NCBI RefSeq assembly: GCF_900696045.1 | Contig: NZ_LR216287.1 | Coordinates: 1,903,854 to 1,967,853, forward strand | Length of the DNA: 64,000 nucleotides | Origin: Candidatus Nitrosocosmicus franklandus | GTDB lineage: Archaea > Thermoproteota > Nitrososphaeria > Nitrososphaerales > Nitrososphaeraceae | Direction: 5' to 3' | Shown here: positions 12,496 to 51,799 of the stretch, in pieces | How the letters are laid out: each line of letters opens with the position of its first letter | Numbering within the stretch: position 1 is the stretch's first letter | Position numbers and translations under genes: made by a program | The notes under the pieces: generated by a model | What the model saw: the letters and a program-made list of their open reading frames with translations, nothing else | The model's database searches: none | Told to the model about the DNA's origin: nothing

Positions 12496-15129
12496 TTATA
12501 GTTTTCTTATTCCTCGAAAGACTTTACTATAATAAACATAATTTTCAACTCCCTGAAAATACCGACTTAACGAACCGAATTTGTTATATTCTTTTACAAA
12601 TCGACATATGCAAATCTGGTTATTCCCTTGATCTAATAATTTGAATAGATTTGCTCTCCCAATTCCGTATTTTATTAAGCCAATAATTTGAAAATCTAAC
12701 CAGTTTTCATCGATTTTATTGTAATTATTAGACATCTTAAGCTTGAAGAACTGTAATTTATTGTCATCAACAGATAAATTCGTGTAATTTATGCATTTTT
12801 CGTTTGTGGAGCTGAATTGGTCTACATCAACAATAGGATAGTATCCGTTTTTTCTCTTGTCCACCTCAGATTGAAAGTCATCGATAAGGCCATTATTTTT
12901 TAGTTCCATGAGGTATATCTTTTTTATAGCATCTGTGGTTAGCGATTTTCCTTTTATTTTTTTGAAATAATCGGATAATTCGTTTGTATAAACTGCTATC
13001 CTATCTTCGCTTTTATCATCTTTTTGTAATGGCTCTTTCTTGGATAAGTATAATGGTATAAAGATTTCAGTAAGAAAATCTACCTTGTAAGAAGGAATTC
13101 CTGTAATATTATGAATTAGTTTTAAAACTTCTTCTAGGTCTGAAAGCAGTGTAATTGTAAGTATTTCTTTACCATAAACCAGCTTGGGTCTGTTATACGA
13201 ATTCACCTTTGTAATTAGAACAAGCATTGAAAAAATTCTATCGGCTATTCTAACATCGGGACCTTTTTCAGATGGAAGCGATTCAGATAATATAGATTGA
13301 AATGGAATCCATACGTTATTAGAATAGTTTAATAGCAATTCTTCCTTGAGTAATAAAATACATTCTTTTGCAAGATCCAAATCTTCTTTTGAGATGATGA
13401 GTTGTTCCTGAACTAACGCAGGAAGACCCTTCTTTTGGGCGATTAAGATATTGGAATCTTGGTATTTTTGCTTTACCATATTAGGAGATGTGATAAAGAA
13501 TCTACTTTGTATCTCAGGCCACATTGACCAGCTTGAATCATCTTTTGCGCTACAAAATATACATGCAGGCCAACCTCTTGTAACGATATGCTTTACTTCC
13601 AGTCCTTTCGTTTCTGTTTTGTAAACATAAGGATGCTCAATTTCTAAAGTATCATGGGATAAGATAGGTTTTAAAATATTCCAGGTGTCAGAATGTGGAG
13701 GCTCCAAGAATACCAAAATCATATTTGAAAGATCAATTAGAACTTTAGAGTCATCATATAATGCTTTAAGCCGTTCTTTCAAGTCGTTTTTAATATTTTC
13801 ATCCTTTTGTTTTTCAATTTGAGATTTTATTTCTTTGACCCTTTCGATAATTGGTTCGTTGTTCTGATCAACCAGAATACCTTTGTCTCGGATCAATACC
13901 TTTGGAGACATATTACCTATCATCCAGACATTTTGTTTTGGAAATAGTTTAATGACTTCTGATACTGCATAAGTCTTTCCCTCACTTGTTGGCGCCACTA
14001 TGCCGAGGTTGAGAGGATCGGAAGTAAAAGTACTTAAAGATGTATATAATATTAGACGGATTAAAGAATCCTCTCTCTTTACTGTTTTTTGAATAATTCT
14101 TAGAATATACTCTACAAGCATTTTATCTGGAATTTTATCAAATATTCTTTCTTTGTCTACCACTATAGACTCGATCTTTGGATTTTCTTTTTGAAACTCA
14201 TATTTGACTTTAGAGTTATCATTTCCTTTATCCAAAGATGAGTCAATTTTCGTATTTATCCAACCCATAGATTGCTTTACTAGGATAGATGCTTCATTTT
14301 CATCTAATGGGGGTTTACAATGAAGGTCATTCCAAGTCATCGCTCTTTTAAATAATTCATCAAATGTCAACACCTTATTAGACAGACTATACCATGAATC
14401 TATTTTTCGTAATAGATTAAGATGGCGATTGTTACCAGCATATACTAGATAATCGTCTTCATCCATTTCCTGAAGACTAGGTAACGAAGGGTATTTTGTA
14501 TAGTTCCCATTATATTTGAGACAAATATTGTCTAAGGCAGTTTTAAGCAAGGATGTTTTTTTATCATCAAGAATTTGGATGGATTTAGTTCCTTGAATTT
14601 CATAATGAAAACCATTCTTGTGGAGTGATCCAGGTCCGATCAGTAATGTGGAACTATCAGTCTTTACCTCAATTGCAGGTAATTCAGAGTTTATTTCCTT
14701 ATTGATAATACTAATTGTGCTAATTCCACAAATCTTGTGAATTGGTTTTTCTACAATCATGTAAATATGAGCTCTCTCACTCTTAGCATCTTCATGTTGA
14801 ACTACTAGGGTGTGTTGAGACAATTCTTGAATAGACTTGATCTCAGTAAAGGAGGCAACAAACTCTTCCATACCTCCGTTATTGTCAATATCTATACATA
14901 TCAAGTATTTTCCTCTATTCGGTCCTCTCCAAATCCTTCCTGTGAACAATGCAAAGCCATTTTTGAATAAACCTTCGTTTTTCAATTTTTCAAAAATTTC
15001 ATTAGGAATAACCTTATCCTGCCATTCTTTCCAGTTTACTAATGGTCGCTTATTTCTCGAATCCATTGGGATTAAATTAATGCCCATTTGATAGTAGAAG
15101 TAATGCAAATTGTCATAAATTGAAGTCAT
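12496..15129 (-). CDS. PrimPol (archaeo-eukaryotic primase) - P-loop ATPase replication protein of element A
   Basis: About 877 aa from ATG 15129; a TTG at 15144 would overlap the upstream gene, while ATG leaves a 4-bp gap. The N-terminal ~200 residues form a bifunctional primase-polymerase domain: CIDIDNN (Asp80, Asp82), then SERAHIYMIVEKP, then IEVKTD and GPGSLH (His170). An ATPase domain follows with Walker A APTSEGKT (Lys385) and a Walker B-like strand MILVFLEPP. The first 110 residues are clearly related to the replicase at 46.3-49.0 kb (shared FTGRIWRG / CIDIDN pattern), but the ATPase modules differ. Such proteins replicate archaeal plasmids and viruses. It is the last gene of a compact operon with two small upstream genes. 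Confidence 0.85.
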   Translation of the reverse strand: MTSIYDNLHYFYYQMGINLIPMDSRNKRPLVNWKEWQDKVIPNEIFEKLKNEGLFKNGFALFTGRIWRGPNRGKYLICIDIDNNGGMEEFVASFTEIKSIQELSQHTLVVQHEDAKSERAHIYMIVEKPIHKICGISTISIINKEINSELPAIEVKTDSSTLLIGPGSLHKNGFHYEIQGTKSIQILDDKKTSLLKTALDNICLKYNGNYTKYPSLPSLQEMDEDDYLVYAGNNRHLNLLRKIDSWYSLSNKVLTFDELFKRAMTWNDLHCKPPLDENEASILVKQSMGWINTKIDSSLDKGNDNSKVKYEFQKENPKIESIVVDKERIFDKIPDKMLVEYILRIIQKTVKREDSLIRLILYTSLSTFTSDPLNLGIVAPTSEGKTYAVSEVIKLFPKQNVWMIGNMSPKVLIRDKGILVDQNNEPIIERVKEIKSQIEKQKDENIKNDLKERLKALYDDSKVLIDLSNMILVFLEPPHSDTWNILKPILSHDTLEIEHPYVYKTETKGLEVKHIVTRGWPACIFCSAKDDSSWSMWPEIQSRFFITSPNMVKQKYQDSNILIAQKKGLPALVQEQLIISKEDLDLAKECILLLKEELLLNYSNNVWIPFQSILSESLPSEKGPDVRIADRIFSMLVLITKVNSYNRPKLVYGKEILTITLLSDLEEVLKLIHNITGIPSYKVDFLTEIFIPLYLSKKEPLQKDDKSEDRIAVYTNELSDYFKKIKGKSLTTDAIKKIYLMELKNNGLIDDFQSEVDKRKNGYYPIVDVDQFSSTNEKCINYTNLSVDDNKLQFFKLKMSNNYNKIDENWLDFQIIGLIKYGIGRANLFKLLDQGNNQICICRFVKEYNKFGSLSRYFQGVENYVYYSKVFRGIRKL

Positions 15130-15133
15130 ATTA

Positions 15134-15403
15134 TTACTCCCCAATAGGCTCGATTTTATCTATTAGAATTTCTTCAATACTTTGACAATCCATTCCAGTT
15201 TCTTTTTCTAATTCTCTACACATTCTTGCAAGAAATTTAATCTTAAATTCTGTCCAGTCATAATATCCGAATAATATAATTCTTGACAAATGGATACGGA
15301 TTTTTCCATGAACATACTTGTCTACCAAAATGCTTTTTGCTACTTGTTTAACTGCTCGAAAAAGTTTATCTTCATTCTCATAGATATTATCAATCATTCT
15401 CAT
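15134..15403 (-). CDS. Small uncharacterised protein in the replicase operon
   Basis: An 89-aa protein from ATG 15403 (MRMIDNIYENEDK), 4 bp after the stop of the AbrB gene and 4 bp before the replicase start. A longer frame to 15460 overlaps the AbrB gene and is less likely. The sequence is mostly helical and basic in the first half (VAKSILVDKYVHGKIRIHLSRIILFG) and acidic at the end. No family recognised. The position between regulator and PrimPol suggests a replication accessory or copy-control role, by inference only. Confidence 0.6.
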   Translation of the reverse strand: MRMIDNIYENEDKLFRAVKQVAKSILVDKYVHGKIRIHLSRIILFGYYDWTEFKIKFLARMCRELEKETGMDCQSIEEILIDKIEPIGE

Positions 15404-17513: not shown

Positions 17514-18758
17514 CTAATTCTTTAACTTTTGAATTTCATTCATTAATATCATTACTTGATCTGATAACGCCTTAATAGCATCATCCCTCTCTTGAAGTTT
17601 TGAACTAACAAGATGTTCATTATTTTCATTTTTCTCTCTTAGTTCTTTGATCTCTTTTTCAAGTATTGTATTATCTTCTTGGTTTACAGTTAGAAGGGGA
17701 ATTGCCTTTTGGTATTCTGCGAGGATATCTTCTTCTTTAGGACGTAAGTAATGCAAAACTATTCCTGTATCATGTGACATGAGCATTGATACGATGAGTT
17801 CTCTCATAACCTTTTGACATTCTGTTTCAAAAAACTTCCTAAAGCCATGCACACTCTTGACATCGTATTTTCTATAATTGAATTCCCCTTCTTTTGGGAT
17901 TCTTTTCTCTCTTAGTCCTTGAATCTTCCACGCATCGTTTATCAATACTCTGATTCCATTGGCACTAAGTCTTTTTGGATGCTTTGCAAGTCCTAGATAG
18001 TTTCCATATCTTTGACTTTTTATTTGCCAAAGGTTACGTATAATACAAGAATCAGGTCCTATTTTTTCACCAAATGATGCTCGAAAGTCCATCCATTCCT
18101 TCACAGATTGATACGCTTCGGGTGTGACATACGAAAAATAGTAATTCTTTGTCTTTGTGTTAAAAACCTTTAATTTTGCGGCTATTAATCGATCATTCTC
18201 ATATATCGGAGTGAAGTCACTCCATTTAATATAATTCCATGAACTAACTCTGATTCCAGAAGAAATCATTACTAGCACAATTGGTTTAACCCTACGATCG
18301 GGAAATTGAATTAATTTTTTGATTTCGTCCATAGTAGGCGGCCGATCGTTTGAATACCTAATTCCTTTCTTAATCCCTTTAGATATTAGCTTCCAGTTCA
18401 GGGAAATTCCATTCATTTCACAAAATCTTTTGATGGGTTTAAAATAGTTCTTTATCGTTTCTGTGGATATTTCTCCTTTTTCTACCCTTTTATTCTGTAA
18501 TGTGAAAAACTTGAATAATTCATTTTCAAGCCAAGATGTGCCATCTTTCCTTTCTTTTATCCTATTAAAAAAAACGTTGCAATTCTCTTCAATTGATTTG
18601 GATCTTATGTTCATGAAATCCAGAAATACTTGCAATCTTTTTGGATACTGGCGTTTTGATTCTTTAGAGTTTAAAGCATACATGAATTTTTCATAAGGAG
18701 AGAATTCTAGAGGGCTTTTTTGGATTTCCAAATCTTCGAAAGAGGTAAAGGATGCCAT
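17514..18758 (-). CDS. Tyrosine recombinase (integrase) of element A
   Basis: A 414-aa protein. The catalytic set is visible: SSGIRVSSW (Arg170), HGFRKFF (His304, Arg307), MSHDTG (His329) and HYLRP (Tyr337). A C-terminal coiled coil (about 355-414, LEKEIKELREKNE...) could mediate multimerisation. The start (ATG 18758) lies 42 bp from the start of the att-like repeat at 18800-18831, the usual place for the integrase of a tRNA-targeted archaeal element. The gene is uninterrupted, so the integrase is not split by attachment as in SSV-type fuselloviruses. The family resembles archaeal plasmid/virus integrases. Confidence 0.9.
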   Translation of the reverse strand: MASFTSFEDLEIQKSPLEFSPYEKFMYALNSKESKRQYPKRLQVFLDFMNIRSKSIEENCNVFFNRIKERKDGTSWLENELFKFFTLQNKRVEKGEISTETIKNYFKPIKRFCEMNGISLNWKLISKGIKKGIRYSNDRPPTMDEIKKLIQFPDRRVKPIVLVMISSGIRVSSWNYIKWSDFTPIYENDRLIAAKLKVFNTKTKNYYFSYVTPEAYQSVKEWMDFRASFGEKIGPDSCIIRNLWQIKSQRYGNYLGLAKHPKRLSANGIRVLINDAWKIQGLREKRIPKEGEFNYRKYDVKSVHGFRKFFETECQKVMRELIVSMLMSHDTGIVLHYLRPKEEDILAEYQKAIPLLTVNQEDNTILEKEIKELREKNENNEHLVSSKLQERDDAIKALSDQVMILMNEIQKLKN

Positions 18759-18799: not shown

Positions 18800-18831
18800 G
18801 AAGAGATATCAAACGGGCCCGGTGGGCTTCG
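18800..18831 (-). repeat. Right att-like repeat of element A (tRNA-Arg 3'-end copy)
   Basis: Begins GAAGAGATATCAAACGG, matching the left copy at 4692. Its core from 18814 to 18831 (CGGGCCCGGTGGGCTTCG) is identical to 51725-51742, the 3' end of the tRNA-Arg on the minus strand. No 5' half of a tRNA follows, so this is a 3'-end copy, not a gene. Confidence 0.7.
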
Positions 18832-28696: not shown

Positions 28697-30111
28697 TCAC
28701 TCTACATGATGGTTGTGAATCAATTGATCATAAAATCTCACTGATTTTATATTTACAAACTCAAGCATACCGTACCTTGATAACTCCCTGCCAAAACCAC
28801 TTTTTTTAACACCTCCAAATGGAACTCTAGGATCTGAGGCTACGACATTATTAACAGATACCATACCTGACTCGATAATGCTTGAAAGTCTTTCTGCTTT
28901 GTCCAAATCTTGAGTCCATATACTTGCTCCTAGACCATAATCTGAATTATTAGCAATTCTTATGGCTTCTGCATCATAGCCAGCTACAATAATTGGGGCA
29001 ACTGGGCCAAATACCTCTTCTTGAGCTATAGACATTTTGGCTCGATATTCTTGAGAACTGTTGGTCTGTAAAAATTGCCTTTATTTCCTACTTGTTCTCC
29101 TCCTGTTAGAATTTCGGTACCTTCTTTAATTGAGGTTTTAACCTGCGAATCTATTTTCTGTAGACCGCTAGCATTTACAAGCGGCCCTATATCAGTATTG
29201 TCCGACATGGGATCACCCACATTAAGCGTTTCAGTTTTTTGAACGAATTTTTCAATGAACTCGTTAGCAATATCTTTTACTACAATAAAACGTTTTGAGG
29301 CTATACAGCTTTGACCACAATTTATAAAACGTCCCTTTATGGCACCGTCGGATGCTTTCTCGATATCGGCATCTTCACACACTATGAAAGGATCACTTCC
29401 TCCCAACTCTAACACCGTTTTCTTCACCTGAGATGTGGCCCTTTGCGCAACCTTTGCACCTACAGGAACACTTCCAGTGAACGTTACTGCATTAATATCC
29501 GAATCAATTAGTGACTCTGCAATTCTTGAGTCACCTATCAGTGTTTGAAATACTCCTTCTGGAATCCCTATTCTATCGAACGCATTTTCTATATTAATAC
29601 CACATTGCATAGTAACACTAGACGGCTTTAATACAATCGTATTACCGACCATTAACGAAGGTGCTGCAAATCTTAATGCTTGCCAGTATGGAAAGTTCCA
29701 CGGCATAATGCTGCCTACTACTCCAATAGGCTGAAATTTTATCATGGATTTCCTTGCATCAGTATTTATAATTTCATCTGTAGAAATGATCTGTCCATTA
29801 TCGGCGTAATATTCTATCGCCCAAGCACATTTTTCAACTTCGGATCTGGCTTCTTTTATTGCCTTTCCCATTTCATTTGTGGCGGTTCTTGCAAGGTTCT
29901 CTTTATTTTTTCGTAATTCATTAGCAACAGCATAGAGATAATCTATTCTTTTGTTTGTATCTTTTTTCCACTCTTGAAAAGCAATTCTGGATTTCTTTAC
30001 TCTATCCGTTATCTGATCTTTGGTCATATTTTTGTATTTGTTGACAACCTCTCTTGTTGCAGGATTTATAGTCTCAAATTCCATTGCTGAATCTGTCGAG
30101 GAATCTGTCAT
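28697..30111 (-). pseudogene. Aldehyde (succinate-semialdehyde-type) dehydrogenase, frameshifted near the C-terminus
   Basis: The first 358 codons (ATG 30111) carry all usual ALDH motifs: MPWNFPYWQALR, VTFTGSVPVGAKVA, LELGGSDPFIV and the catalytic NCGQSC (Cys269). The frame then ends KNIEPKCL-stop. The natural continuation, SIAQEEVFGPVAPI through PFGGVKKSGFGRE, lies in another frame from 29035 to 28697. The junction is a run of four A on the minus strand (CCAAAATG); a fifth A would restore a 470-aa protein. It is a homopolymer error, slippage site or recent mutation. The start overlaps the stop of the alcohol dehydrogenase by 4 bp, so the two form an alcohol-to-acid operon. Confidence 0.85.
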
Positions 30112-42745: not shown

Positions 42746-43769
42746 TCATAGAAATAATTCCATGATGCATCTCTCTACATCATCCACGAACGTCTTACAT
42801 TTTTCTTTGAACTCCTCAAAAGTGTTACCAGTCAAATCGATATTCTTGAGTAATATTTTGTATCTACTAGATAGCAAAGTTCTTGAAAATGGTGCTTCAA
42901 AGTATTGAGGATAAACGAGTATGCCTGTGGAAACATTTAACGAAATACAGTATATCCACATTTGATTCAAATCATCATCCTTTATTGATGTCTTGTATTT
43001 AGTATCAAGAATCAAAACAATTATGCCTTTTTTCTTGACTATGATATCTGGTCTTATTAATGTTCTTTGTTCTTCATCGATATGTCTGTTAAAGTCATTT
43101 TTTACAGAGTCCCTTTTCTTTAAGGTTTGATTCAAGTAATCTATAAACAAATTTCTCAAATAACTTGTCCATATCGACTAGAAATGATGAAAATTTTACT
43201 TCACCTCTTTTCTCAACATATAGCGAGCTATTTGAAATTACCAGATCGCAAAGAGTAACTATTGTACGATAATGAAATGTGAGTTTATCAAATATGATAG
43301 TTGGAAATTTAGAATAAGAGATCAAAGAAACAGGTTCAAAATAATGTAACAACCTTTTTGCTTTTCGATACAAATCAGGGTTTGTAAAGTATATTTGAGA
43401 TAGATGATACAAAGTATATTTTATTATTCTATTTTCAACGGTATCTGGACCAAAATCAGAATATCTGCAATACATTTTGTTTTTGTAGACCAGATTGTAT
43501 TTCAAATTCTCTTTGATTAATATTCTACCTTTGACATAAGAAAGATTCTCCTCGGTATCATAGTATTTTTTGGAAATTCCTTTTCGACATAAATCTTCTA
43601 CTCTTCTTAACAAATCAGCAACAATTAATTCAAACATGATATTCTCATTCTCCTTTTGGTAAGAAAGATCTTGTTTTCTAAAATCGATTATTTCAATAAC
43701 AGTAGATAACATATATGAAAAGTTTAGTGGATTTACCTTTTGAATTGGGAAAAAAGAGGTATAGTTCAA
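42746..43769 (-). pseudogene. mcrC: McrC-like restriction component, frameshifted
   Basis: Two overlapping frames make up one McrC-like protein. The upstream piece (43769 to 43095) has the N-terminal and middle McrC features: LSTVIEIIDFRKQDL, YCRYSDFGPDTVENRIIKYTL and FEKFVYRLLESNL. The downstream piece (ending 42746) has the PD-(D/E)xK core RPDIIVKKKGIIVLILDTKYK. The shift falls within the A-rich tract at about 43.10-43.13 kb. McrC is the nuclease partner of the GTPase McrB in modification-dependent restriction. No McrB is present on either side, so it is an orphan as well as broken, a leftover defence gene. The upstream edge is only ~30 bp from the iteron cluster. Confidence 0.75.
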
Positions 43770-44421
43770 GTTGTATTACTAACCACAAGTTAAAATTTCA
43801 ACTTGTTTTGACAGTTCTTGATTAACTGTCAAATTACTGTCATTTGTAGATAATTCAGTTTTCTTCTTGATTTGTGCTCATTTAGTTACCAGATTAGGGT
43901 CTGATTTGACGGTTTGACAGTTCTGACGGTAGTTTGTAAATTACTAGGAAAATGAATAGACGGTCTTCATTGTTCTGTTTTTCCTCTAAACAACTAGATC
44001 ACTCCAGTCATCATAGCATTTTTAAAACAACTGTCAAGACCGTCAAACTGTCAAAAAACACTAGATTATTGAAAATACATGATTTTCCTTCACAAATATA
44101 TCAAACATTTCAAAAATCAAACAATATCGATTTGACAGTTCTTTGACAGTATGACAGTAACTGTCAAAATAAGATGAAAAGAATTCAAAACTCATGTGAC
44201 ATAATACAGTTTGAATCATCGTCCTTCTTTATCCCATTCAAGTTTTTAGACTTAGGATTGTCTACAGTGCCAGGAGATAAGAAAACATGCAATCCAATAA
44301 TTATTAGACTCTATTTCAATTCTGCTCGTGTATGTATTAATCCATGTATGTAAAAGTTAAGGCAAATCTGAATTTGTTAAATAGATCTTAGACAGGTTAT
44401 ATTAGTATTAATTCCAAATTA
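43770..44421. other. Non-coding origin-like region of element B
   Basis: About 650 bases without a real gene between the broken mcrC and the IS6-type element. It holds 13 copies of a 7-bp motif (separate entry). The 64-codon plus frame at 43952-44146 runs through the repeats and is an artefact. Confidence 0.6.
43809..44166. repeat. Cluster of 13 TGACAGT/ACTGTCA iterons, candidate replication origin
   Basis: The heptamer TGACAGT (variant TGACGGT) occurs in forward orientation at 43809, 43907, 43915, 43924, 44133, 44144 and 44152. It occurs inverted at 43825, 43836, 44030, 44039, 44047 and 44160. Many neighbours are 8, 9 or 11 bp apart. Two triplets are mirror images: forward G-A-G variants at 43907-43930 (spacing 8, 9) and inverted at 44030-44053 (spacing 9, 8), separated by a ~100-bp A+T-rich spacer. 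Such iterons bind initiator proteins at plasmid and viral origins; here the replicase gene lies 2 kb away. A single extra ACTGTCA occurs at 46270, just past the replicase stop. Confidence 0.75.
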
Positions 44422-45097
44422 GGCTCTGTTAACTTAAGAAAATGATATAGCTTGAAGATGCTCTATTTCTGATATGTTCAGTAAAAGAAACAGAACATCT
44501 TCGTTAGATATTGACCATGCTTTGTATTTGTATTTTCTTGGTTTATCAACTAGAAGTGTTTCCAAAGCAATATTTCATATAAACAAGGTGAAGAGAAGCC
44601 ATGTTGCAATTTGGAAGTGGATTCAAAAGTATAAACCACAGAAGATATCGATCAAAAAGAAAAGGATTTCAGAATTTATCATAGACGAGACGTTGATCAA
44701 AGTTGGACCAGAGTACATTTGGTTATGGGTTACAATTGAACCGGAAAATAGGCAAATTCTCGCACTATCCATCTCTAAGGAAAGAAACATGTTTGTAGCA
44801 GAAAGGTTCCTTGATAGTTTGATTAAGAGTCACGGAAAACACTGTGTATCGACCGATGGTGGAACATGGTATCCTCAAGCCTGCCGATTCCTGAAACTAA
44901 GACATCATATCCATTCCTCTCTAGAGAAAAGCCTGATAGAAAGGACTATGCAATACATCAAGGACAGAACGGAAAGTTTCGATGATTACTTTCCATGTAG
45001 AATAAAGAATTGTAAGTTGAAGCATATACGAAACTGGCTGAATCTGTTTGTCAACTATCATAACAAGGAGCTGATCAACGCTTAAGTTAACAGCGCC
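44422..45097 (+). mobile_element. IS6-type insertion sequence, intact copy
   Basis: Ends are 17-bp inverted repeats matching at 16 positions (GGCTCTGTTAACTTAAG at 44422; GGCGCTGTTAACTTAAG read inward from 45097). It is flanked by an exact 8-bp duplication CCAAATTA (44414-44421 and 45098-45105). Length 676 bp. Related to the dead copy at 24 kb. Confidence 0.92.
44474..45085 (+). CDS. IS6-type DDE transposase
   Basis: A 203-aa protein filling the IS. An N-terminal helix-turn-helix (SLDIDHALYLYFLGLSTRSVSKAI) precedes the DDE core: FIIDETLIKVG, VSTDGGTWYPQACR and EKSLIERTMQYIKDR. Both its length and the 8-bp target duplication fit small archaeal IS6/IS240-type transposases. No interruption is present, so it is probably active and could also mobilise the dead copy. 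Confidence 0.9.
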   Translation: MFSKRNRTSSLDIDHALYLYFLGLSTRSVSKAIFHINKVKRSHVAIWKWIQKYKPQKISIKKKRISEFIIDETLIKVGPEYIWLWVTIEPENRQILALSISKERNMFVAERFLDSLIKSHGKHCVSTDGGTWYPQACRFLKLRHHIHSSLEKSLIERTMQYIKDRTESFDDYFPCRIKNCKLKHIRNWLNLFVNYHNKELINA

Positions 45098-45337
45098 CCA
45101 AATTATGAGATATCGGATCTCTCCATAGCAAGAATTTATTTTGGTATATTTTCTTATAATTTAACTATATCAAAGGAGATCTTTTGGATAATTATTAGAT
45201 CTTTTAGGACTAATATTTCCTTGACTAATAAACAACAACATTAATCATTTCTCAAATGTTATTCTATTATTACGAATTATCCAAGTAATTCATAGATAAC
45301 TATTTTAACCCGACTTAAAAAATAAAATTCTAGTTTT

Positions 45338-45887: not shown

Positions 45888-46301
45888 CTTTTGATCATAC
45901 GTAGTCTCGTTTCTACTTAAGAAGTAAACAGTATCTAGAATTAATAACTATCAAGCATGGCCGGATTTCAAAAAATAACTTCCTTAAACTGCTATTAACC
46001 ATTAAAAAGTAGATTCTTTAATAGTCTGAGCAAGTAAATTTTCGTATAATTGATTAGAATGTAAACTTGATGATTTTCCTACTGCTTGTATATCCAGAAG
46101 AGCAGATAATTCTATTGACACCCAAATACTCACCCATTTTAGATATACCTTATATTGTCTAATTGTATTTTATTAGACAACGTATTTTAGAGCTTATTTC
46201 GGAATGAAATTAAATATTCTACTAAAAAAATAACCTCATCAATTTTACAATGAATAAAGGGACTCATCAACTGTCAATTATTTTTTAGCAATTTCCTAAT
46301 T
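45888..46301. other. Intergenic 3' of the element B replicase
   Basis: About 410 A+T-rich bases. One isolated iteron-like ACTGTCA at 46270-46276; otherwise nothing recognisable. Confidence 0.35.
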
Positions 46302-48986
46302 TTAAAGTCGTTGGCCACTACAGATATGACTTTTCATCAAATGGATATCACCTACTAAGGGACATAAGTGACATTCAAAGTTATCCGAATAACCTATCCT
46401 GTGTATATTGGGATGGAATTGACTGCTATCTTTTCGGTTAGACGATTCTAAAATATCCTTTTTCATACTGACATTACACCTGCTATTTTTTCTCAGGTTA
46501 TGAACTTTGATAATTCTGTTTCCATGATTATCCCTTTCTCCGGTTATCACTTCAATACCTTTTTCTTTTAGATTATTAGCAAAGCTATTTAGTATAGATG
46601 TTAATTTGTTTGATGCTTTGGGCCATTCTTTGCTTCTTTTTAATTCTGGTTTTATCTGGTCTATTATGTCTGTTAGCTCTCTGTAGAGTCGAGTGGGACT
46701 ACCTTCCCAATATTCTTTTTCCATTTCAAACATAAATAACAATAATGCTTCTGCAACTGGAGAAGATTCTATTACTTCATCATTTTGATTGGCAATATTA
46801 TCATAATAGGCATTCAGGAATTCATTATCTTCATAACCCAAACACCTGGAAATAATTTCACCCCATTCTGCAAAATCAGCCATTCTGGGATAGCCATTTT
46901 TTAGAATCTGTTCATTCGTATGTTCCTGTTTATATTTTAACACTTTGACCAGCATATCAAAAATGAATCCTAAAACTAAAGGTTTTAACTCTTGAAATTC
47001 CTTGTTTATTTCCTCCTCTTTTCTTCTTTTTTCCTTTTCTATTCTTTTTACCTCTATAATTAAAGATCTATCAAGAAAATCTGCTCTTGTTGAAGCCAGA
47101 TTAATCCCATTAATCCCAATACACCTTTTATACTTGTAGATGAAATCAGTATCAGTTGTGTATAATGCCCTCTTCATATTACCCGAGCCAGTTACAGCTC
47201 TACATAACAAATCAGAAACCTCGTCAGAAATGTAAGAAACATTATCAAAAAAATTTACATAATGGTGATCCAAAGTTTGAACCAAATCGTTGATTTGTTT
47301 AGGAAATGAGAACGTATCAATACTGCCTGGATCAACAATCTCTTTTATCATTCTAAATGTGGTGGTCTTTGCTCCACCCCCTGTTCCTCTAATAATCAGA
47401 ATTACTTTGGGAATATCTGGGATGAATAAGGATACAAGATAAACTGAAAATAGTAGAATATCATTTTTTGATTGAAAGTTGAATAGCTTTAAGAATTGCT
47501 CAAAAATATCCTTTGCATATGTTTTTGATGGATATATCTGTGGAGAACTATTATTTTCGTATCTTTTAAAGATAGGTTCTTGGTTATCCGCGACGATTTT
47601 CCATCCTTCATCTGCACATACCTTAACAATCTCCCATTTTGGTGTAGTCAGATCATAACAGAAAATATAATTGTTATTTTCCTTGTCCTGGTCTTGATCT
47701 AACTTTGCTACTCGTAAACTCAAATTAATTCTTCTTATGTGGTCATCAAACATTGATTGAGATTCGATTAGTTTCAAAACTCCATCTAATTTTTCATCGC
47801 TTATCAGCGTCCCTGTTTTATCAAAAAATTCTTTTCTAATAATACTTTTAAATCTATTACTCTGCAAGGGTATAGATTCAATATGATCATTTATCTTTAT
47901 ACCGACATAGAATACATTAATTTGATCTTGGAATATTTCAATGCTTCTTTCCTTTATAGAGGATATTAAATCTGGAATTGATATTTGTGGTAAACCAGTT
48001 TCAGATTCCTTTTTTTCAATAATTGAATTTACCTGTAAGAATTTCTTGCTACATGCCCATTGATATTCAAATTTTGAATCATCTAGTGGAGGTTTGCAAT
48101 GTTTCTGATTCCACTCATGACACATGTCTTTAATTTTCTCTTCTGAATAAATACCTTTGAGTCTTTGAATTAAGGATTCCATGATTCTCATCAACGCTTC
48201 ACTTCTGTTATTGTTCTCATAAATCTCAAAATCTGTCTTGAATAACTCCTCAATTGGAGTTTTATCATCATCTCCATTCCCTCCTTCATGTTGTTGTGAT
48301 TGAAAACTATATTTAGCATAGATTTGATTAATTCTGTTTTCTAATTCTTGGGATTGTTCTGCATTCAATACAGCTGGAACTCTTGTTCCAATAATTTCAT
48401 ATCTAGATCCATCTTTATGAAAAGAAGGAGAACAAAACATTATACCATGTTTACCTTCTGATTTAACTTCAATAGCAGGAATAATTTCAGAATCTGATCT
48501 ATTCTTTGAGCTGTTGCTACCAATTCCAGATTTCTTGGATAAGGGTTTTTCTACTATAAAATATACATGGGCTTTGTTCCTATTGTCAGGATGCCACTCT
48601 GCTAACGTCTTTTCTGCCAGTTTTTCTAAAGAATTATTTTTACCCCATTGACTCAAAAAATTGTCTATCCCACTCTTATTGTCTATGTCTATAGCACACA
48701 AGTATTTTCCTTCATATTTTCCCCTCCACACTCTACCTGTTACAATTGCGCAACCATTGATATATTCGCCATTTCGTTTTTTCTGTTCATATTCTACATC
48801 AGACATTGAGTTGTTCTGCCACTGACCCCAATCCTCAAAAGTCTTCTTGATCCTAGTGTCAGAACCGATGATATTTACTCCTATATTGTAAAACCAAAAA
48901 TCAGTATCTATATCCATATCTCTCATCATGATTACATATGTTAGAATCTCTTGAACTGGTCCTCTCAAGGCTGTATTCCTTACCAT
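46302..48986 (-). CDS. PrimPol - helicase replication protein of element B
   Basis: An 894-aa protein from ATG 48986. The primase-polymerase domain (about 25-210) has CAIDIDN (Asp100, Asp102), NKAHVYFIVEKP and AIEVKSE with CSPSFH (His190). A helicase-type ATPase follows: Walker A RGTGGGAKTT (Lys540) with Ala in place of the usual Gly/Ser before Lys, Walker B YVNFFDN, and RADFLDRSLIIEV in the arginine-finger region, like SF3/phage primase-helicases. The C-terminal 40 residues have a zinc-finger-like CHLC...HIC. It shares its N-terminal 110 residues with the replicase of element A but not the ATPase. It is downstream of two small regulators on the same strand. Confidence 0.85.
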   Translation of the reverse strand: MVRNTALRGPVQEILTYVIMMRDMDIDTDFWFYNIGVNIIGSDTRIKKTFEDWGQWQNNSMSDVEYEQKKRNGEYINGCAIVTGRVWRGKYEGKYLCAIDIDNKSGIDNFLSQWGKNNSLEKLAEKTLAEWHPDNRNKAHVYFIVEKPLSKKSGIGSNSSKNRSDSEIIPAIEVKSEGKHGIMFCSPSFHKDGSRYEIIGTRVPAVLNAEQSQELENRINQIYAKYSFQSQQHEGGNGDDDKTPIEELFKTDFEIYENNNRSEALMRIMESLIQRLKGIYSEEKIKDMCHEWNQKHCKPPLDDSKFEYQWACSKKFLQVNSIIEKKESETGLPQISIPDLISSIKERSIEIFQDQINVFYVGIKINDHIESIPLQSNRFKSIIRKEFFDKTGTLISDEKLDGVLKLIESQSMFDDHIRRINLSLRVAKLDQDQDKENNNYIFCYDLTTPKWEIVKVCADEGWKIVADNQEPIFKRYENNSSPQIYPSKTYAKDIFEQFLKLFNFQSKNDILLFSVYLVSLFIPDIPKVILIIRGTGGGAKTTTFRMIKEIVDPGSIDTFSFPKQINDLVQTLDHHYVNFFDNVSYISDEVSDLLCRAVTGSGNMKRALYTTDTDFIYKYKRCIGINGINLASTRADFLDRSLIIEVKRIEKEKRRKEEEINKEFQELKPLVLGFIFDMLVKVLKYKQEHTNEQILKNGYPRMADFAEWGEIISRCLGYEDNEFLNAYYDNIANQNDEVIESSPVAEALLLFMFEMEKEYWEGSPTRLYRELTDIIDQIKPELKRSKEWPKASNKLTSILNSFANNLKEKGIEVITGERDNHGNRIIKVHNLRKNSRCNVSMKKDILESSNRKDSSQFHPNIHRIGYSDNFECHLCPLVGDIHLMKSHICSGQRL

Positions 48987-49455: not shown

Positions 49456-50319
49456 ATGACCGATTTTGTAACAATTGAGAAACAGGAATACGATAATTTA
49501 TTATACTATAAAAATTACGTTGAGGAAAGAGACGCTAGGCTGAATATCATGGCCCTTCAGATTGATAATATAAAAAGAAAGTTAGACCTAGATAATTATG
49601 GCAAACCTGAAGCAACGGAAGATAACCTTTCTCAAAGACACTTGGATGTTTTACAAATCTTAAAGTCAAATCCAGGTTGCAATAAACAATTCATCGTTAA
49701 TTTCCTTGATGGAAAATATTCTCGGGTAACAGTCTTCAAATTGCTTGATGATCTAGTAAAGTGGAATTTAATAGATATAGAGAGAGAAAAATTGAATAGT
49801 CAAAATCTTAAATTATTTCTCAAGGATGAGGACTTGCAGATTGGATTAATAAAAGATCTAGACTTGTTCGAAAGGTCCTTTTTTGAACTGACATATAAGA
49901 TCAAAAAGGAAAACGATAGATTGTTATTATTTGAAATACTGAGAATATTTTTTGATTTTATTAGCTTGTCCTTCCTTATTTCTTTTATCAATTGGACTCA
50001 TGAAATAAAGAATAAGAAAATCCTTTATTATATCAATAGATTGACATTTGAAAAATTATTAGGATTTCAATCAAATCTTATGATAGAACTCGAAGGTATA
50101 GATCAATCCATATTAAAAGATTTTTTGAATTTCATTTCGGAAAATCAGTTGCGATTTTTGTCTTTAACTTCGTATTCAAATTGTTACAATAAGTTTAAAG
50201 AAAATAACCTAGGTCATGAGATAGCAGTTATACTCGATTTTCTTTTTGACTTGAGAAATAAATTGATAGATGACCTTTCTTTTCGACAAATTGGCAAGTG
50301 TCAAGATAATATATTTTAA
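49456..50319 (+). CDS. Winged-helix-like regulator of element B
   Basis: A 287-aa protein from ATG 49456, leaderless. N-terminal ~50 residues look like a coiled coil (EYDNLLYYKNYVEERDARLNI). Residues ~55-110 resemble a winged helix (SQRHLDVLQILKSNPGCNKQFIVNFL, then VTVFKLLDDLVKWNLIDIE). The remaining ~170 residues are helical and hydrophobic-rich (LEILRIFFDFISLSFLISF), perhaps a dimerisation or ligand domain. It ends overlapping by 4 bp the 3' end of the integrase gene on the other strand. It faces the replicase operon across a shared promoter. Confidence 0.65.
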   Translation: MTDFVTIEKQEYDNLLYYKNYVEERDARLNIMALQIDNIKRKLDLDNYGKPEATEDNLSQRHLDVLQILKSNPGCNKQFIVNFLDGKYSRVTVFKLLDDLVKWNLIDIEREKLNSQNLKLFLKDEDLQIGLIKDLDLFERSFFELTYKIKKENDRLLLFEILRIFFDFISLSFLISFINWTHEIKNKKILYYINRLTFEKLLGFQSNLMIELEGIDQSILKDFLNFISENQLRFLSLTSYSNCYNKFKENNLGHEIAVILDFLFDLRNKLIDDLSFRQIGKCQDNIF

Positions 50320-51662
50320 AATTTATTCTCCAATGACTCTCGCTTGATAAAAGCTAAACCAGGATTCTGTTGAATCAAAGATAGGATCTTGTTAAATTTA
50401 TTATCCATATCAGTCTTCAGGGTGGCCATATTCCTGTCATGCTCCTGTCTGAGTCTATCTATTTTTTCGTCCTCTGACCTCTTAATTTCGTCGAAAGCTT
50501 CTGGAACAAGCGGATAAGAGCAAGATGAACAATACTTATTTTCTATTGCATTAACCAATTCACATCTAGGGCAGTTTGCTACTGACGGTTTCCTATTAGA
50601 CATTTCTTCTGAAATGATTCCATTATGTTCTAATATTTTGATTTTTAATTCGTTACCCATTCTCTTCTTTATGTAGCGAGCGCCTTGCTTTGAGTTCATA
50701 CTCCATCGAACCTTCTTCTTTAAGGCGTATTCTGGAAGGTAGTCAGAATCATACGAGATCGATGAATGGCGTATGCAATATGGATTCCATTTCTTTATTC
50801 TAAGTAAATAGCGAATCTGTTCTAATTCCTTGGAATCAGTAATTTCATTATAGTCAATTAACCTCTGAATTCTTTTCTTAAGTTGTCTCATTACGTCATA
50901 TATTTGGTCTGGTCCAATAGATGACCCAGTTAGCAGATTGCATATTAACCTTGCTTCAGGTTCGTTTTTGAAAGGGTGCTCATTTAACCAATCTCTTACA
51001 TAAGGAAAAGAGAACGTAAGTAACATGGGACCACTACCAGTTTTTGCTTCATGTGGTATTTCCCCCTCTCCATATTTTTCCTTTAATCTAACGTGTTTGA
51101 TTTTTAATAATGTGATCTCGTGAGGTCTTGCATCTAAATCCCATAATAAAGATAGAATTGCCTTGTTCCTTTTGTATGGTTCATATTTTATTATTGTAGT
51201 CAATTCATCTCTATCCCAAATCTCTGTTTCCAAATAAGGACTTAGTCTCTTTGTTCTTTTCATTTTTATGTTGATAAAATCTGGTGTATTCCAGGTGTCA
51301 TACGATTTTGCATTTATTCCTTTATCTCTAGCATTATTTAGCCATCGGTAGAAATATTTTAATCTCCAAAGGTAATCATTCCATGTAGTGATCCATTTTT
51401 TATCTGGATCATCCTTGTCAGATTTTCTTTTCGAATCTAGGAAATTTAATATTTGTTCTTTTTCTTGAATCTGATAAAAAGTTGTATACACTCCTATATA
51501 TTCTGCATATCTTATCAGGACCTTAAGTAATCCATTCTGATAATTTTCAGAAGTGTCAATAGTTTTTAGGTATTCGTAAAATTCCTTTATTATTTGTCTA
51601 TTGGTCTGATTTGCTACTTTGACGTCTATATTTTTGATTGTTGTGATTAACTTAGCGGGCAA
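50316..51662 (-). CDS. Tyrosine recombinase (integrase) of element B with C-terminal zinc ribbon
   Basis: A 448-aa protein. The catalytic elements are DLDARPHEI (Arg179), EAKTGSG (Lys207), NPYCIRHS (Tyr295, Arg298; the usual His of H-x2-R is Tyr) and QGARYIKK (Tyr330). A zinc ribbon follows (Cys364/Cys367, Cys378/Cys381), then a charged coiled coil. The start is 63 bp from the 3' end of tRNA-Arg(TCG), the same arrangement as the integrase at 18.8 kb, although the two integrases are only distantly alike. Integrases next to a tRNA 3' end typically use that tRNA as att site. Confidence 0.9.
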   Translation of the reverse strand: MPAKLITTIKNIDVKVANQTNRQIIKEFYEYLKTIDTSENYQNGLLKVLIRYAEYIGVYTTFYQIQEKEQILNFLDSKRKSDKDDPDKKWITTWNDYLWRLKYFYRWLNNARDKGINAKSYDTWNTPDFINIKMKRTKRLSPYLETEIWDRDELTTIIKYEPYKRNKAILSLLWDLDARPHEITLLKIKHVRLKEKYGEGEIPHEAKTGSGPMLLTFSFPYVRDWLNEHPFKNEPEARLICNLLTGSSIGPDQIYDVMRQLKKRIQRLIDYNEITDSKELEQIRYLLRIKKWNPYCIRHSSISYDSDYLPEYALKKKVRWSMNSKQGARYIKKRMGNELKIKILEHNGIISEEMSNRKPSVANCPRCELVNAIENKYCSSCSYPLVPEAFDEIKRSEDEKIDRLRQEHDRNMATLKTDMDNKFNKILSLIQQNPGLAFIKRESLENKF

Positions 51663-51724
51663 CTATGACCTCCTTTCTCCTATTGTTATGTGTGACGCAG
51701 AAATATTTGAACCCATGTGAATAA

Positions 51725-51799
51725 CGGGCCCGGTGGGCTTCGATCCCATGACCTGCGGTTCCGAAGACCGCCGCGATATCCTGACTACGCTACGGACCC
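51725..51799 (-). tRNA. tRNA-Arg (anticodon TCG), integration target
   Basis: The minus strand folds as a tRNA: acceptor GGGTCCG/CGGGCCC (one G-T pair), D-arm with GG in the loop, anticodon stem GCGGT/ACCGC around CTTCGGA (anticodon TCG, Arg CGA codons), discriminator G. The T-loop reads ATCGAAG where TTCGAAT is expected, and the outer T-stem pair is A-C. These oddities lie in the 3' part that the integrated element would supply. The 3' end is copied at 18.8 kb and, less exactly, at 4.7 and 19.4 kb. Confidence 0.85.

Follow-up and report, generated by a model that had tools for sequence, protein, structure and literature searches.

A cluster of short repeats at positions 43809-44166 of the window, the 64,000-nucleotide stretch analyzed here from the genome of the soil ammonia-oxidizing archaeon Candidatus Nitrosocosmicus franklandus, is very probably the replication origin of an element integrated at a tRNA-Arg gene, and it is probably recognized by the element's own PrimPol-helicase, which is encoded at 46302-48986 on the minus strand. 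The original prediction had proposed an iteron origin. In support of that reading, the repeats form a compact, non-random cluster that is unique in the genome, and across relatives the array is linked to the gene for the presumed initiator, being kept 3' of the PrimPol gene.

The cluster had been described as 13 copies of one 7-mer in ~360 bp. The count was borne out, but the copies are not identical: ten are exact matches to TGACAGT (43809, 43915, 44133, 44144, and 44152 on the plus strand; 43825, 43836, 44030, 44047, and 44160 on the minus strand) and three are the variant TGACGGT (43907 and 43924 on the plus strand; 44039 on the minus strand). The density of the repeats is beyond chance, as had been claimed, with 13 TGACRGT sites in a 358-bp interval, versus 0.07 predicted from the remainder of the window (Poisson P for at least 13 sites, ~2e-25). 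Seven same-strand pairs of TGACRGT sites lie no more than 12 bp apart in the 2,836,447-bp genome, and all seven are within the array. A motif equally dense elsewhere had been named as evidence against an origin, and the genome-wide count revealed no second cluster in 2.84 Mb. A reading of the array as a dispersed repeat was rejected, as the genome contains no second array.

The repeats are arranged as a dyad in the order outer group, inner triplet on the plus strand, 99-bp gap, inner triplet on the minus strand, outer group. The predicted mirrored triplets are present: TGACGGT-TGACAGT-TGACGGT at 43907, 43915, and 43924 (43907-43930, plus strand, spacing 8 and 9) faces TGACAGT-TGACGGT-TGACAGT at 44030, 44039, and 44047 (44030-44053, minus strand), in which the spacing along the window is 9 and 8. 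The outer groups are roughly mirrored. The PrimPol-distal group (43809-43842), which is also found in relatives, has one plus-strand copy at 43809 and minus-strand copies at 43825 and 43836, and the PrimPol-proximal group (44133-44166) has plus-strand copies at 44133, 44144, and 44152 and a minus-strand copy at 44160. The gap between the inverted inner triplets (43931-44029) is the presumed melting zone. It had been described as an A+T-rich center, a description that holds at most loosely, with 69% A+T versus 67% for the window; in homologous arrays the corresponding gap has 68-81% A+T versus a background of ~67%, the enrichment being weak in several elements. On one side only, between the inner and outer groups, the array carries the conserved element GGTAACTAAATGAGCACAA (43872-43890, minus strand). 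The lone copy of TGACAGT that the original prediction had placed past the replicase stop is indeed present at 46270-46276 on the minus strand, 26 nt beyond the stop, and its position fits that of the first iteron (+11) in the related element L077. This isolated copy may be an array remnant or may be due to chance.

A search for PrimPol homologues in 151 genomes and a plain motif search were run separately, and their matches coincide in several genomes. Rather than having an origin elsewhere without the motif, the related PrimPol elements carry the array directly 3' of the PrimPol gene. The array starts ~10-60 bp past the PrimPol stop in L077 (genome G009), L079 (G006), L080 (G003), L081 (G005), and L082 (G013), and in L077 it extends from +11 to +366 after the stop. 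In L078 (G036) a diverged array at +110 to +330 after the PrimPol stop is accompanied by a second, better array at +1023 to +1357, and in L091 the two halves of the array are split, with opposite orientations, downstream of PrimPol. In L078 and L091, the paired arrays or split halves lie on either side of 0.7-1.4 kb of DNA 3' of PrimPol; possibly the origin was duplicated there, or the site is prone to insertions.

Alignment of eight arrays showed that their geometry is conserved better than the letters of the iterons. The inner triplets have the spacing 8,9 and 9,8 in nearly all of them, the gap is ~80-120 bp, and the one-sided element, with the consensus GGTAACNATTTNAGCAYAA (GGTAAC-NATTT-NAGCA), sits in all eight between inner and outer groups that are 67-72 bp apart. 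A genome-wide search for this one-sided motif with two mismatches gave counts at the control level and was uninformative. The iteron itself varies with the replicase: it is TGACAGT in the window, L077, L078, and L079, TGACAGG in L080, GGACGAT in L081, and TGACGGT in L082, the GACG form being common to the sister replicases L081 and L082. Rigid geometry combined with drifting letters would be the pattern expected for a protein-DNA recognition pair. No TGACRGT-type array was found at the more distant archaeal PrimPols L083, L084, L085, and L086, and at L087, another distant archaeal PrimPol, there are a few CGAACGAT repeats.

The inner triplet was also used for a blind search, in which the pattern DGACRRTNDGACRRTNNDGACRRT was sought in 400 genomes of the order and the same pattern read backwards served as the control. 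The pattern had 18 matches in nine of the 400 genomes and the reversed pattern had none. Twelve of the 18 matches adjoin a PrimPol homologue, five are half-arrays without a PrimPol homologue nearby (four in G004 and one in G036:C171), and the remaining one, in G057, lies within a longer ORF and is apparently due to chance. The half-arrays (L210, L211, L212, and L213 in G004 and L215 in G036:C171) consist of one inner triplet plus outer sites, and three of those in G004 have common flanking sequence and an att-like sequence, also present in L077, at a distance of ~100-250 bp. These half-arrays could be remnants, or they could be origin-bearing elements that are replicated in trans.

The element that hosts the array has a tyrosine recombinase (integrase) gene at 50316-51662 on the minus strand; the product has a weak match to an integrase profile and is 82% identical to the L079 protein, and its relatives match Phage_integrase. 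The attachment repeat at 51723-51742 lies at the 3' end of tRNA-Arg(TCG), the gene for which is at 51725-51799 on the minus strand, and an exact second copy of this 20-bp sequence is found at 18812-18831. This second copy is a candidate for the far end of the element or for a junction with a neighboring element, designated element A. Element A has a second, related PrimPol-helicase gene (12496-15144, minus strand), downstream of which no iteron array was visible, and an integrase-size ORF (17514-18758, minus strand) that adjoins the att-like repeat at 18812-18831. The putative tRNA-Arg element also encodes an alcohol dehydrogenase, malic enzyme, and Rieske proteins, as well as an aldehyde dehydrogenase split by an apparent frameshift (28697-29035 and 29026-30111, minus strand).

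The window array has the same orientation relative to PrimPol as the arrays of the relatives and is separated from the PrimPol stop by ~2.1 kb. An IS240/IS6-type insertion sequence (44422-45097, plus strand; transposase gene at 44474-45085) accounts for 0.7 kb of this distance and has the 8-bp target duplication CCAAATTA on both sides, with identical copies at 44414-44421 and 45098-45105. The other ~1.4 kb holds a 119-aa ORF of unknown kind. Since the array is integrated and lies ~2.1 kb from the replicase, with the insertion sequence in between, its present activity is uncertain. Initiators of the replicase type act in trans on nearby DNA, so a distance of 2 kb need not abolish function, and the pRN1 origin was still functional after being moved (PMC4234260). 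On the other side of the array is an McrC-like gene that is probably broken, as it consists of two overlapping ORFs in different frames (42746-43159 and 43095-43769, minus strand). No McrB gene was identified beside it. An association of the array with the McrC-like gene was considered and rejected because it is not kept in relatives.

The replicase is a protein of 894 aa with an N-terminal AEP Prim-Pol domain, a D5/SF3-type helicase, a putative C-terminal winged helix-turn-helix (wHTH) domain at about residues 735-830, and a terminal Cys/His finger. Residues 330-894 were modeled with AlphaFold2 (mean pLDDT 85), and the resulting structure matches helicases of the D5 type, among them the ASFV PrimPol, MPXV E5/D5, the C-terminal region of the NrS-1 PrimPol, and the SaPI5 primase-helicase 7ola (E 3e-9). 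When the C-terminal piece was modeled alone (pLDDT 88), the predicted order of secondary structure was helix-strand-helix-helix-strand-strand, as in a winged helix. The isolated domain model had no significant match in the PDB (best E 0.08), so the wHTH assignment rests on the predicted order of helices and strands, from which the domain is likely a winged helix; P4 alpha was absent among the 50 PDB matches listed for it. Sequence-profile searches of the PDB with C-terminal alignments returned just short P-loop or helical chance matches. Neither Pfam nor NCBIfam has a family for the helicase; three of 27 members have weak VapE-like matches, and among the members scanned, PHROGs yielded no match to the helicase part. 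As seen in alignment A3, which combines residues 330-894 of the window protein with 26 homologues, this is a widespread family that is almost without coverage in Pfam, NCBIfam, and PHROGs.

The helicase and C-terminal part of the replicase have homologues in bacteria and phage contigs, and in many of these, mirrored iterons with a GACG core occur within the final 350 bp of the gene, past the segment for the putative winged-helix domain. Opposite triplets alternate likewise in L114, L110, and L120, with a spacing of 8-10 bp. At least five copies of one 7-mer are present in the 3' zone of the gene at 46 of 83 loci versus 34 of 543 control stretches (6%), although many of the 83 loci are related to one another, so P values overstate their independence and are indicative only. 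The repeat contains CGTC/GACG at 32 of the 46 homologue loci versus 11 of 45 control repeats, and it occurs in both orientations at 35 of the 46 versus 19 of 45. The embedded iterons encode tails rich in Asp, Asn, Ala, and Ser, such as DANDANDA in L110, and the forward copies mostly keep one frame. When read in its two orientations, one DNA word gives rise to different peptides, an indication that the DNA itself is under selection. Asp-rich, low-complexity tails were observed at the 3' end of the helicase ORFs of L110, L112, L113, L114, L120, and L145, and they seem to have arisen as a side effect of origin iterons lying within the coding sequence. L110 has a Toprim/DnaG-type primase domain in place of the archaeal AEP Prim-Pol, and given this difference the part that comprises the helicase, C-terminal domain, and origin seems to travel independently of the primase. 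We lean towards the view that these three are passed on together, as a cassette, in archaea, bacteria, and phages alike, and that the primase ahead of them is exchangeable (AEP in the archaeal proteins and Toprim in L110). The origin of such a cassette would consist of mirrored GAC[G/A]-core iterons, located within the 3' end of the cassette's gene or immediately past it, and in bacteria it would also shape the protein tail. Separately, two IMG/VR contigs (L184 and L185) have seven to eight copies of mirrored GGTGAAC repeats near the helicase stop, which we take to resemble the P4 type I iteron.

Could the array serve something other than replication? Clusters of mirrored repeats are also known from operator and parS-like regions, and the start of the McrC-like ORF (43769) is only 40 bp from the array, which lies upstream of it. 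The repeats might then be operators for a small DNA-binding protein, acting in the control of the neighboring genes or in partition as a centromere-like site. The neighbor that stays constant across relatives, however, is the 3' end of PrimPol rather than a promoter or an McrC gene, bacterial homologues have such repeats inside the end of the helicase gene, and no conserved partition gene was seen; we regard a regulatory or centromere-like function as improbable. The array as a remnant of transposon ends or of a MITE with several transposase-binding sites, linked to PrimPol through co-mobilization only, is a reading to which we give hardly any credence. Mirrored multi-site ends do resemble those of transposons, half-arrays occur without PrimPol in G004, and several elements (L078 and L091) have a second or split array. 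Against this, the genome has no dispersed copies, the adjacent insertion sequence has separate ends and an 8-bp target duplication of its own, the position and orientation of the array relative to PrimPol are conserved, and the repeats recur in the coding tail of bacterial homologues.

An alternative mechanism for an array that does act in replication is that it works as a structure, its dyad DNA extruding a large hairpin for the replicase, as was proposed for pRN1-type PrimPol plasmids, where the origin is a stem-loop 3' of the PrimPol gene (PMC4234260). The strand does fold better than shuffled versions of itself (z -5.1 for the window and -3.0 for L077), but inverted iterons would fold together anyway, and what is conserved is a series of 7-mers at set distances, among them same-orientation triplets for which a hairpin has no need. 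A hairpin-based origin therefore seems to us quite improbable.

For an iteron origin, we propose a mechanism by analogy with SaPI, SCCmec, and P4 (PMC7581432, PMC6092414, PMC4234260). The C-terminal domain of the replicase would bind the TGACRGT iterons; the original prediction had suggested the replicase or an RHH-like protein as the binder, and presumably the best candidate is this domain, not an RHH protein. The six or seven iterons in each half-array, in opposite orientations, may seed two D5/SF3 helicase hexamers face to face, and the opposed hexamers would melt the gap that separates the inner triplets. Priming of synthesis in both directions could then fall to the AEP domain, which is part of the same protein, before hand-over to a host polymerase.

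Little is known about replication origins in archaeal mobile elements, and the stem-loop of pRN1 is the experimentally supported AEP-PrimPol case that we found. The array described here would give thaumarchaeal elements a concrete minimal origin that can be tested in vitro and perhaps used in vectors for ammonia-oxidizing archaea. It also suggests a rule for locating origins, which is to inspect the 3' end of the helicase gene. The original prediction held that archaeal origins of this design are little described. The design resembles SaPI/PICI origins, and in that respect the claim is refined; our literature search, the coverage of which is incomplete, found no earlier description of iteron origins in archaeal PrimPol or thaumarchaeal elements. 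The Thaumarchaeota cryptic integrated elements are from the same archaeal phylum and have PrimPol-S3H replicases, and the parts of that study covered by a term search contain no description of their origins (PMC6563490).

Among known systems, the pRN1 family (ORF904 PrimPol) shares with the window element an archaeal AEP primase, an SF3 helicase, and, if the wHTH prediction is right, a C-terminal DNA-binding domain, and its origin lies just downstream of orf904 (PMC4234260). That origin is a stem-loop of ~100 bp in which the authors found no iterons, and they proposed stem-loop recognition by the AEP-PrimPol type of replicase (PMC4234260). The conserved unit here, in contrast, is an array of 7-mer repeats rather than a single stem-loop. 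Phage P4 alpha combines a primase, a helicase, and an origin-binding winged-helix domain that acts on repeats in a single polypeptide (summarized in PMC4234260), but its primase is of the Toprim type.

In layout the array follows SaPI/PICI origins. In SaPI/PICI and SCCmec, the replicase works on iterons that immediately follow its own gene (PMC7581432, PMC6092414), and the SaPI/PICI replicase is reported to recognize the origin through its C-terminal domain (PMC6092414, PMC7581432). In both SaPI/PICI and the archaeal elements, two sets of iterons surround a gap, and these sets are mirrored in the window array; they directly follow the replicase gene in L077, L079, L080, L081, and L082, while the window array is displaced by ~2.1 kb. 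A primase and a D5-type helicase are fused or paired in SaPI/PICI, and the window replicase model matches SaPI5 7ola. The archaeal system differs in its host, its AEP primase domain, and its iteron sequence, and the window-type array has four groups, mirrored 8,9 and 9,8 spacing, and a conserved one-sided motif. The array also belongs to an element without identified phage-satellite genes; the element ORFs scanned include none recognized as serving packaging or interference, and we do not claim that the element is a PICI. An earlier description held that, of all bacterial replicons, PICIs alone have the PICI-style origin plan; the array would extend this plan to archaeal elements and, with a related design, to a broad range of homologues in phages and bacteria.
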